Shown here: one piece after another, positions 27,404 to 50,425 of the stretch
How positions within the stretch are numbered: the stretch's first letter is position 1
Layout of the letters: every line of letters starts with the position of its first letter
From: Paenibacillus sp.
GTDB taxonomy: Bacteria > Bacillota > Bacilli > Paenibacillales > YIM-B00363
Direction: 5' to 3'
Assembly: GCF_035645195.1 (NCBI RefSeq)
Contig: NZ_DASQNA010000030.1
Coordinates: forward strand, 248,001 to 312,000
Length of the DNA stretch: 64,000 nucleotides
Notes under the pieces: model-generated
The model's database searches: none
Told to the model about the DNA's origin: nothing
The model's input: the letters and a program-made list of their open reading frames with translations, nothing else
Position numbers and translations under genes: made by a program

Positions 27404-27807
27404 TAGCCGCAAAATTGCGGCTAAGGAGCCGTTGGCGGTGGCGTCGGCGGGCTGTAAGGAGCAAATGTTCTTATTCGGCGGTTGGCGGGGCTGGCGGCGG
27501 TGTGTAAGGAGCAAATGTTTCTTATTCAGCGGTTGGCGGGGCTGGCGGCGGGCTGTAAGGAGCAAATGTTTCTTATTTGGCGGTTGACGGGGCTGAAGGC
27601 GGGCTGTAAGGAGCAAATGTTTCTTATTCGGCGTTTGGCGGGGGTGTAGGCGGGCTGTAAGGAGCAAATGTTTCTTATTCGGTGGTTGGCGGGGCTGAAG
27701 GCGGGCTGTAAGGAGCAATTGTTTCTTATTCGGCGGTTGGCGGGGCTGAGGGCGGGCTGTAAGGAGCAAATGTTCCTTATTCGGCGGTTGGCGGGGCTGA
27801 AGGCGGC
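27404..27807 (+). repeat. Tandem array A: eight 51-bp palindrome-plus-linker units
   Basis: Units start at 27404, 27455, then every 51 bp (27505 for the third, because the second unit lacks one T) to 27760. Each has a roughly 20-bp imperfect palindrome followed by a GC-rich linker ending GGCGGGCTG. In units 2-8 the palindrome arms are TAAGGAGCA and TGTTTCTTA; the last copy reads TGTTCCTTA, giving full pairing apart from one G-T. Unit 1 instead has arms TAGCCGCAA / TTGCGGCTA at the same phase, on a related linker. The array fills most of the 507-bp space between the convergent GH2 and lacI genes, which otherwise holds only the GH2 terminator. Because 51 is divisible by three, both strands stay open, but no ribosome binding site supports translation. 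Confidence 0.95.
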
Positions 27808-46934: not shown

Positions 46935-48374
46935 TTACTTGAATCGCTTTACGAGCTCGTCGTATTCCGGGCTCTTCAAGAAATCGTCGATGGAAATATG
47001 CTCCGCGTTCGGCGCTTTTTGCTTTGCGCGGTCGGTCAGCGTTTTGTGCGTGATGACGATGTCGGCGTCCGACGGAATGTCGTTGATCGCCGTATTCGTC
47101 ACCGCGATCGGCACGTCGGCCGACTTCATTTTTTTCCGAAGGATGGACGCGCCCATGGCGCTGGAGCCCATGCCGGCATCGCAGGAGAAGACGATTTTCT
47201 TCACTTCGTCCTTCGCTTTGGCCGGCGTTGGCGCCGCAGCTTGCGCCGCAGACTGCGCCGGAGCGGCCGCGGTCGAGCCGGCACTCTTCATTTCGCGCAT
47301 CTTCGCCTGCGCTTGCTCCAGATCTTCTTCCGACTGACGGCCCGTCTTCAGCAGCAGCGCGGACACCGCGAACGATGCGGCGGCGGCGGTCAATACGCCG
47401 GCGAGCACCGGCAGCAGCCCGCCCCGCGGCGACATGGCGGCCAGCGCGAAAATGCTGCCCGGCGACGGCGTCGCGACGAGCCCCGCGCCGAGAATCAAGA
47501 ACGTGAATGTGCCGACGACGCCGCCTGCAATGACGCCGAGAATGAGGCGCGGGTTCATGAGAATGTACGGGAAGTAAATCTCGTGAATGCCCCCAAGGAA
47601 GTGGATGATCGTCGCGCCCGGCGCCGACTGCTTCGCCGCGCCCCGGCCGACGAGCCAGTACGCGAGCAGGACGCCGAGGCCCGGACCCGGGTTCGCTTCC
47701 AGCAGGAAGATGATCGACTTGCCGGCGGTCGACGCCTGCTCGAGCGCGATCGGACCGAGCACGCCGTGGTTGATCGCGTTGTTGAGGAACAAAATTTTAC
47801 CCGGCTCGATCAACAAGTTCGCGAGCGGGAGCAGTCCGGTGTCGACGAGGAAGCCGACGCCGCCTGCGAGCGCCTGGCTGATCGCTTGCACGACCGGGCC
47901 GATGCCGACGTACGCGAGCAGCGCCAGCGCCGCGCCGATGATGCCGGCGGAGAAGTTGTTGACGAGCATCTCGAAGCCGGCGCGGACTTTGCCTTCGATC
48001 GACTTGTCGAACTTCTTCAGCACCCAGGCCGAGAGCGGTCCGACGATCATCGCCCCGAGGAACATCGGGATCGAGGAGCCGACGACGACGCCCATCGTCG
48101 CCACGGCGCCGATGACGCCGCCGCGCGTGCCGTGGATCATCGAGCCGCCCGTATAACCGATGAGGATCGGGAGCAGGTACGTGATCATCGGGCTGACGAG
48201 CGCAGCGAGATTTTCGTTCGGAATCCAGCCGGTCGGAATGAACAACGCGGTAATAAGACCCCATGCGATGAACGCGCCGATATTCGGCATCACCATACCG
48301 CTTAAGAATCGGCCGAATTTTTGAACCGATACGCGAAGACCTCCTTGGCCTTGCGATGAAGCAGTGTCTTGCAT
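46935..48374 (-). CDS. mtlA: Mannitol-specific PTS permease EIICB
   Basis: 479 residues from the ATG at 48374, which has AAGGAGG upstream; eight further residues are open before it. The EIIC membrane domain covers about residues 10-340 and includes the GGIHEIYFPY motif with the sugar-binding glutamate, and NHGVLGPIALEQA. After an alanine/proline-rich linker comes EIIB, with the phosphorylated cysteine at about 398 (FSCDAGMGSSAMGAS). EIIA is a separate protein (mtlF), as in other Firmicutes. It imports mannitol and phosphorylates it to mannitol-1-phosphate. It is the first gene of the operon. Confidence 0.96.
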   Translation of the reverse strand: MQDTASSQGQGGLRVSVQKFGRFLSGMVMPNIGAFIAWGLITALFIPTGWIPNENLAALVSPMITYLLPILIGYTGGSMIHGTRGGVIGAVATMGVVVGSSIPMFLGAMIVGPLSAWVLKKFDKSIEGKVRAGFEMLVNNFSAGIIGAALALLAYVGIGPVVQAISQALAGGVGFLVDTGLLPLANLLIEPGKILFLNNAINHGVLGPIALEQASTAGKSIIFLLEANPGPGLGVLLAYWLVGRGAAKQSAPGATIIHFLGGIHEIYFPYILMNPRLILGVIAGGVVGTFTFLILGAGLVATPSPGSIFALAAMSPRGGLLPVLAGVLTAAAASFAVSALLLKTGRQSEEDLEQAQAKMREMKSAGSTAAAPAQSAAQAAAPTPAKAKDEVKKIVFSCDAGMGSSAMGASILRKKMKSADVPIAVTNTAINDIPSDADIVITHKTLTDRAKQKAPNAEHISIDDFLKSPEYDELVKRFK

Positions 48375-48425
48375 GGACGAAACCTCCTTAACATCCAATC
48401 TATTGAGAGTAGTATGGGTTAAATC

Positions 48426-48444: not shown

Positions 48445-48635
48445 ATAAACCGTTTTCAGCTTCAACAAAAGGATAATCAGGTTCCGTCATGATTGCCGAT
48501 GACAGCATTTTGTTTTATTTGCGGCGTTAATAATGAGGGGGCGCGAGCGGCGGGTTTGGTGGGGGAGAGGATGCAGGAGCATCGGGGGGCGTTGAAGTAT
48601 TCAGCGATTCGTCCGCCTCGGGTCCGCGGGCAGTT

Positions 48636-49680
48636 TAGCCGGAGTTTTTCCGACTATTTCGTCCCGAGCAGGGGCCGCAGGCAGAATAGTCGGAGTTTTT
48701 CCGGCTATTTCGTCCCGCGCAGGGGCCGCAGGCAGAATAGTCGGAGTTACTCCGGCTATTCCGTCCCGAGCAGGGTCCGCGGGCAGTTTAGTCGGAGTTT
48801 CTCCGACTATTTCGTCCCGAGCAGGGTCCGCGGGCAGTTTAGTCGGAGTTTCTCCGACTATTCCGTCTCGCGCAAGGTTCGGCGGCAGAATAGTCGGAGT
48901 TTCTCCGACTATTTCGTCCCGCGCAGGGGCCGCAGGCAGCTTAGTCGGAGTTTCTCCGACTATTTCGTCCCAAGCAGGGTCGGCGGGCGGTTTAGTCGGA
49001 GTTTCTCCGACTATTTCGTCCCGCGTAAGGTCCGGCGGCAGTTTAGTCGGAGTTTTTCCGACTATTTCGACCCGAGCAGAGGCCGCAGGCAGCTTAGTCG
49101 GAGTTTCTCCGACTGTACCGCATCGCGCAAGGTCCGCAGGCAGTTTAGTCGGAGTTTCTCCGACTATTCCGTCTCGCGCAAGGTTCGGCGGCAGCTTAGT
49201 CGGAGTTTCTCCGACTATTCCGCATCGCTCAAGGTCCGGCGGCAGAATAGTCGGAGTTTTTCCGACTATTTCGTCCCGCGCAGGGGCCGCAGGCAGTTTA
49301 GTCGGAGTTTCTCCGACTATTCCGCACCGTGCAAGGTCCAGCGTCAGTTTAGTCGGAGTTTCTCCGACTATTTCGTCCCGCGCAGGGTCCGCGAGCAGTT
49401 TAGTCGGAGTTTCTCCAACTATTTCGTTCCGCGCAGGGTCCGGCGGCAGTTTAGTCGGAGTTTCTCCGACTATTCCGCACCGTGCAGGGTCCGCAGGCAG
49501 AATAGTCGGAGTTTTTCCGACTATTTCGTCCCGCGCAGGGTCCGCGGGCAGTTTAGTCGGAGTTTCTCCGACTATTCCGCACCGCGCCAGGTCCAGCGGC
49601 AATATAGTCGGAGTTTCTCCGACTGTTCCGCATCGCGCAAGGTCCGTCCGCCAGCAGTGTAGTCGAAGTTCCTCCGACGA
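48636..49680 (+). repeat. Tandem array B: about 21 palindrome-plus-linker units of 51 bp
   Basis: Twenty units start at exactly 51-bp intervals from 48636 to 49605, and a degenerate 21st begins at 49660 after a 55-bp step. Each unit has a 21-bp palindrome with arms TAGTCGGAG and CTCCGACTA around TTT, and a linker of about 30 bp resembling TTCGTCCCGCGCAGGGTCCG-CGGGCAG. The arms are nearly invariant, while the linker varies (TTC/TCC, GTC/GCA, CCC/CTC, AGG/AAG). There are no indels in twenty units. It lies between mtlA's upstream region and the gntR stop, three bases away. Both strands are open in one frame, encoding 17-residue repeats (SRSFSDY type on the plus strand), but no ribosome binding site is seen and no protein is called. 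Confidence 0.97.
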
Positions 49681-49684
49681 TGGA

Positions 49685-50425
49685 CTACGCGAGCTCGTTC
49701 AGCACCTGCTCCACCTTGGCGATATGCGCCTCCATGCGGCGCTGCGCCTCGGCGGCGTCGCCGTCGCGGATCGCTTCGAGGATCGAGCGATGCTCCCGCA
49801 GCAGCCGCTCGGCGGTCGACTGCTCGGCGTAAAACCACAGCTCCCGCGTGTCCCGCATGCTGTCGTGCAGCCGCTCTGTCAGCGACTCCATCATGTCGAC
49901 CAGCAGCGGGTTGCGGGTGGCGGCGGCGACGCCGAGATGAAACTTGACGTCGGCTTGCTCGCCGAGCGACTGGTCGCCGAGGCCGCGCTCCATCTCCGCC
50001 ACCAGCGCCTCGAGCGCGGCGACGTCCTCCGCGGTCCGGTTGGCGGCGGCGAGGGCGGCGCAGCCCGCCTCGAGCACGCGGCGCACCTCGAGGATGCGCT
50101 TCAGCGTCGCGGCGCGGCCGGACCACAGCGCGGGGCGGTCCCGCGCGGGCGCCGGCGGCGGCGCCGCCAAGGCGAACGTGCCCCCGCCTTGGCGAACGGC
50201 GAGCCGGCCCATCGCCTTCAAGGCGCTGATCGCTTCGCGGACGGTGGAGCGGCCGACGCCGTAGCGCCGGCTCAATTCGTCGACGGACGGGAGCCTCGCG
50301 CCCGGCGCGAACGTGCCGTCGTCGAGCTGGCGGAGCAAATCCGCTTGGACCCATTCGGAGCTTTTCATCGGGCGCGGGGCTTCGCCGGCCGGAAGAGCGG
50401 ACGGTCCTTCTTGTCGGTTGGTCAT
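49685..50425 (-). CDS. GntR/FadR-family transcriptional regulator
   Basis: 246 residues. The N-terminal GntR winged helix is LPSVDELSRRYGVGRSTVREAISALKAMGRLAVRQGGGTFAL. The C-terminal FCD domain (about residues 95-240) has its metal-binding histidines in KFHLGVAAATRN and REHRSILEAIRDGD and HIAKVEQ. FadR-type regulators of this kind respond to lactate, glycolate or other small acids. It is divergent from glcD, and a perfect inverted repeat lies in the intervening promoter, so it probably represses glcDF. AAGGAGG precedes the ATG. Its stop codon is adjacent to array B. Confidence 0.93.
   Translation of the reverse strand: MTNRQEGPSALPAGEAPRPMKSSEWVQADLLRQLDDGTFAPGARLPSVDELSRRYGVGRSTVREAISALKAMGRLAVRQGGGTFALAAPPPAPARDRPALWSGRAATLKRILEVRRVLEAGCAALAAANRTAEDVAALEALVAEMERGLGDQSLGEQADVKFHLGVAAATRNPLLVDMMESLTERLHDSMRDTRELWFYAEQSTAERLLREHRSILEAIRDGDAAEAQRRMEAHIAKVEQVLNELA

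Follow-up and report, generated by a model that had tools for sequence, protein, structure and literature searches.

A Satellite-Like Family of 50–52-bp Palindromic Tandem Arrays in Paenibacillales

Introduction

What keeps a short palindrome nearly constant, at a constant spacing, when the DNA between its copies drifts? This question is raised by an intergenic locus in a 64,000-nucleotide stretch of a Paenibacillus-like genome (hereafter the window), where a 21-bp palindrome recurs every 51 bp. A preliminary description of the locus had proposed a protein-binding array, a chain of RNA hairpins in a long 3' untranslated region or a mobile palindrome of the REP type. We show here that the array is one member of a satellite-like DNA family that is found across the lineage and whose units of 50–52 bp each combine one palindrome of 20–21 bp with a linker of about 30 bp that drifts faster. 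We tentatively propose that a putative binding protein, reading palindromes set about five helical turns apart in a sequence-specific manner, maintains this family for a presumed function.

Results

Layout of the window array

The array is flanked on the left by an mtlA-like PTS gene, whose 5' end faces it, and on the right by a GntR-type gene, whose 3' end does; both names are readings of the translated sequences (Table 1). The twenty regular palindromes of the array start at 48636 + 51k (k = 0–19), a spacing of exactly 51 bp, and are of the type TAGTCGGAG-TTT-CTCCGACTA, the exact 21-mer TAGTCGGAGTTTCTCCGACTA accounting for 11 of the 20; the final linker extends to 49659. Both TRF (period 51, 20.7 copies, 48620–49678) and a palindrome scan (21 copies, with 19 consecutive spacings of 51 bp and then one of 55 before the decayed copy) confirmed the twenty copies and the decayed twenty-first at 49660 given in the preliminary description. 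Its remark that linkers drift around near-constant arms was also borne out, as the mean pairwise diversity in the window array is 0.236 for the linker and 0.051 for the arms. As single strand, the palindrome forms a hairpin of -7.8 kcal/mol (z -5.6 versus shuffles), and linker hairpins are unremarkable (mean fold z -0.31).

Table 1. Annotated features of the window around the two 51-bp arrays.
Feature	Position	Strand	Remarks
Mannitol-type PTS EIICB gene (mtlA-like)	46935..48398	-	Named from translated sequence; ~240-340 bp separate its 5' end from the array to the right; also a neighbour in congener G001
20 x 51-bp units	48636..49625	.	21-bp palindrome TAGTCGGAG-N3-CTCCGACTA (family A) + 30-bp linker
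Decayed 21st palindrome	49660..49680	.	55 bp past the 20th; stops a few bases short of the GntR-type gene 3' end
GntR/FadR-type regulator gene	49685..50425	-	Named from translated sequence; 3' end toward the array; also a neighbour in congener G001
Second 51-bp array in the window	27431..27806	.	7 units with the family B palindrome (TAAGGAGCAAATGTTTCTTA type); flanking genes convergent

Two open frames, of 389 aa on the plus strand (48493–49662) and of 333 aa on the minus strand (48601–49602), span the array, 51 being divisible by 3. The array could on this ground be read as coding for a protein of 17-residue repeats. However, a codon-usage gene caller leaves it non-coding, and the 52-bp units of congeners cannot remain in frame; we therefore rejected this reading, which is most improbable. 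Automatic annotation may nonetheless generate false repeat proteins at the window array. Just upstream of the mtlA-like gene, the non-coding segment 48434–48514 is 83% identical to congener G001, far above the adjacent array linkers, and is probably the promoter or operator region of that gene.

Array families in the genome and its congeners

This Paenibacillus-like genome has at least two dozen 51-bp arrays, the window array among them. The census drew on 1.2 Mb from this genome together with stretches from others; many array stretches were picked by pattern match, and the unbiased set is smaller. The palindrome of the window array, which defines family A, has 77 copies in the 5.95-Mb genome (at most 2 mismatches). 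All 74 copies in the stretches read sit in tandem arrays and an array on contig C15 accounts for the other 3; none of the genome's 77 copies is solitary, and the repeats are direct only. They make up about 12 arrays of 51-bp units, and many family A arrays are also present in congeners G001 and G002. That the palindrome occurs nowhere else in related genomes, one of the earlier conditions for a one-off satellite, is false, given the many loci in this genome and the two congeners.

Family B has a different palindrome, likewise in 51-bp units, at about 12 loci, one of them in the window, and family C (TARSCGCA-N4-TGCGSYTA type) provides additional 51-bp arrays. Arrays count 3–23 units. Across unrelated linkers and three palindrome families, the interval is 51 bp in 300 of 336 cases and 52 bp in 32; 52-bp units are the main type in congeners G003 and G005, the latter also having units of 51. 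Adjacent arrays of different families are out of phase, with junctions of 39, 62, 72, 78, 85 and 128 bp, and phase continuity across different palindromes was accordingly discarded. We also observed a composite array, family B followed by family A with an identical 78-bp junction, on two contigs (L090:9139-9636 and L091:2011-2899) whose left flanks differ, which suggests either that array segments are copied or an assembly effect.

The arrays share with satellites and minisatellites head-to-tail monomers, homogenisation within arrays, decayed ends and copy numbers that differ between counterparts. The main rival to a binding array is a selfish or neutral bacterial satellite. In this view, a palindromic monomer of about 51 bp reached many intergenic sites, undergoes amplification and homogenisation through hairpin-aided slippage or unequal crossing-over, and survives where it is harmless, after stop codons, functionless and with an inherited unit length. 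We consider this account possible, if somewhat doubtful. It is favored by the restriction of copies to arrays and by the composite array, with one junction in two places of different flanks. A search among viral contigs, plasmids and phages gave no match pointing to a phage or plasmid origin, and no description of 51/52-bp palindromic tandem arrays was found in the open-access literature searched.

The arms are conserved in sequence rather than in pairing

Arms are less variable than linkers in 38 of 41 arrays, and over family A the diversity is 0.039 in arms versus 0.130 in linkers, 3.3-fold lower in the arms. Column diversity in family A is lowest in GTCGGA-N5-TCCGAC, two inverted half-sites 11 bp apart; the genome has 72 occurrences of this motif and 0 of the reversed-pattern control. 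The family A loop varies freely in sequence and is at times inverted between neighbouring units. Inversions of the 3-base loop within one array (TTC/GAA and TTT/AAA, at L107:6656-6953 and L086:9591-10007) are what hairpin strand switching would yield.

Family A linkers are strongly different between loci, with a common flank signature, CAG on one side and GCGRAA on the other (21.2 bits versus 12.2 +/- 0.4 in shuffles). Linkers of family B, compared over 12 loci, show 72% identity; therefore, whole units of this family have spread, linkers included, as a satellite would. The same account is supported by array ends, which are more decayed than interiors (0.96 versus 0.42 mismatches). Against it, arms and not linkers are fixed within arrays, between loci and between species.

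Among the arm changes in 203 family A units, 96 are one-sided and a single one is a compensated pair. Conservation is therefore of sequence, not of pairing. This also speaks against a satellite shaped by hairpin-driven repair, which predicts paired changes where 96 of 97 are one-sided. The preliminary description had held that arm changes mostly keep G-T pairing. This is so for the plus strand of the window array alone (9 G.T, 3 A.C), but neither on the strand reading out of the abutting gene nor across the 203 family units.

Arrays lie close to gene 3' ends

According to a simple codon-usage gene caller, arrays are intergenic; a few overlap called genes substantially, but these are located at the ends of contigs, where we took the call to be wrong. 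The median distance from array to gene is 33 bp for 3' ends and 140 bp for 5' ends, and convergent intergenes are enriched for arrays (8/82 vs 11/571, p=0.001). In two cases (L107:6679-6681 and L085:16831-16833), the upstream gene uses the first TAG of the palindrome as its stop codon, so that the array starts right where the coding sequence stops. The location of the arrays is compatible both with promoter avoidance and with a role at 3' ends. Scored by eye, units are opposite to the abutting gene in 10 cases and in the same orientation in 4, which is not significant, the orientation being weakly determined as the units are palindromic.

These data bear on the RNA hairpin chain, in which arrays would be transcribed as 3' UTRs and their hairpins would end transcription or would protect or regulate the mRNA. 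The proximity to 3' ends, the convergent enrichment, the stop codons supplied by palindromes and the stability of the hairpin are all in its favor, so the proposal stands as far as location is concerned, arrays abutting stop codons. On the contrary, compensatory or G-U evidence and a strand preference are absent: on the transcribed strand of tandem-gene contexts, G.T and A.C are about equally frequent (27 and 29 in family A, 67 and 50 in family B), compensation is almost nil, the loop is unconserved, and pairing alone would not keep the arm sequence constant across loci. Moreover, no Rfam family matched, and terminator-like sites number 1 against a shuffle mean of 2.8, with no excess of U-tract terminators. 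A known structured RNA or an intrinsic terminator was thus rejected, and the RNA hairpin chain as a whole appears improbable.

Dispersed intergenic palindromes close to 3' ends also recall REP/BIME elements moved by a Y1 transposase (RAYT). However, PF01797 gave 0 matches in G000–G007 and in the more distant G112, G184 and G128, G103 alone being positive, and the units are direct tandem repeats of fixed period with no solitary copies. The suggestion of a REP-like mobile palindrome was therefore abandoned, and its chance of being right is slight indeed.

Counterpart sites in congeners

Three arrays have congener counterparts, assigned by gene neighbourhood: the window array and L106, L085 and L112, and L101 and L110. 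At the mtlA/GntR position, the congener has the same palindrome with an unrelated linker. Window and L106 linkers indeed bear no recognisable kinship, whereas those of L101 and L110 are still alike next to the palindrome. An extra gene separates the array from the GntR gene in G001. Copy numbers in the three pairs are 21 and 8, 4 and 11, and 6 and 5, and at some other orthologous sites the array is absent. A palindrome kept beside a different linker at such positions speaks for a binding array; differing copy numbers and empty sites are again as expected of a satellite.

Distribution across the order

In distant genera of the order, we found 50–52-bp arrays with other palindromes in G112, G184, G061, G103, G128 and G125, in stretches that, except for most of G112, were chosen near pattern matches. 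To this we can add 1.96 Mb sampled irrespective of arrays, where 50–52 bp is the commonest tandem-repeat period between 25 and 200 bp (10 of 33 loci); more loci have multiples of 50–52, and some of the 50–52-bp units are missing a strong palindrome. The pattern GGAG-N3-CTCC at 50–53 bp, which fixes core and spacing and thus gauges that core alone, was present in 16 of 298 genomes of the order versus 2 for the reversed control. In the class sample it matched this genome and, outside the order, two more genomes with one non-arrayed match apiece. One distant genus also has a larger composite repeat region (L224:10975-13024 in G128), with periods of 31 and 103–107 bp and with palindromes. The recurrence of 50–52 bp across genera counts against a satellite, as neutral monomers with free turnover should drift in length.

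Discussion

A proposed dimer-binding array as the best explanation

A binding array is the best-fitting candidate because the arms are kept in sequence and the loop is not, and because the spacing stays at 50–52 bp across unrelated linkers and palindromes. In such a system, a dimeric protein would recognise the double-stranded DNA of the palindromes sequence-specifically, and the palindromes would be kept for this reason. The half-sites GTCGGA-N5-TCCGAC of family A have centres 11 bp apart, about one helical turn, and a unit of 50–52 bp, close to five turns, would place successive dimers on the same face and allow cooperative binding, as for SopB/ParB on sopC. Unequal exchange or slippage would let arrays grow, shrink and homogenise. 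Different palindrome families would have different or diverged proteins as their readers. Candidate outputs include nucleoid organisation, insulation between transcription units, segregation and titration.

Several observations weigh against a binding array, even though the arms, free loop and fixed spacing fit this candidate of the preliminary description best. No binding protein was found. Solitary sites are absent, whereas an ordinary operator usually also occurs singly, and three or more palindrome families in a single genome would each require a reader. The unit length could be common by descent from one ancestral monomer, in line with the family B linkers and the flank signature of family A. 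Finally, adjacent families are out of phase, and arrays are missing at some orthologous sites.

The proposal can be extended to the order Paenibacillales, where dispersed arrays of binding sites along the chromosome would follow a ruler of about five helical turns (50–52 bp). Palindromes of diverse sequence would have come to use this one spacing, with cooperative loading of dimeric proteins at gene 3' ends and at convergent junctions. The outcome would be a distributed system for nucleoid organisation, insulation or partition. In this full form, we regard the idea as unlikely.

The arrays themselves are a ready bait for a reader protein. If there is no reader, they would represent a clear bacterial satellite DNA with conserved monomer length, which itself needs a mechanism. 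In practical terms, such arrays end contigs in assemblies and produce spurious long ORFs.

Comparison with known systems

Among known architectures, sopC of the F plasmid comes closest, with twelve 43-bp tandem direct repeats, ten of which have a conserved 16-bp inverted repeat, a layout for binding of dimeric ParB/SopB (PMC6238139). Like sopC (parS-F), the 51-bp arrays repeat in tandem a unit that contains a conserved inverted repeat, a resemblance that we take as one of layout only. In contrast to the single 43-bp plasmid array lying beside its own partition genes, here there are dozens, chromosomal, with 50–52-bp units and several palindrome types. On location, the window array does not group with sopC: it lies on a chromosomal contig next to genes of the mtlA (PTS) and GntR types, there was no plasmid match, and no partition operon was noticed beside it.

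With REP/BIME, the arrays have in common dispersed, intergenic palindromes near gene 3' ends; they differ by the lack of a Y1 transposase in the genus, by having no solitary copies and by their direct tandem arrangement of fixed period. In CRISPR arrays, a palindromic repeat also alternates with spacers of about 30 bp, but those spacers are unique, whereas the linkers of one array resemble each other here (~13% diversity), and this candidate was rejected on the similarity of the linkers. Bacterial minisatellites such as MIRU-VNTR are likewise intergenic tandem repeats of variable copy number; the present arrays differ in having a period of 50–52 bp across unrelated sequences and genera, with a guarded palindrome in most units. 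Eukaryotic satellite DNA consists of homogenised monomers of conserved length, in which a short protein box (e.g., the CENP-B box) persists in a diverging monomer. The arrays are similar in monomer length conservation and in the short conserved box, but they are bacterial, short (3–23 units), intergenic and dispersed. Most intergenic repeats of bacteria are mobile palindromes that occur singly, or minisatellites whose period is arbitrary. A unit length common to unrelated sequences and genera, in which the palindrome alone is guarded, is the pattern expected of a protein that reads both sequence and spacing.
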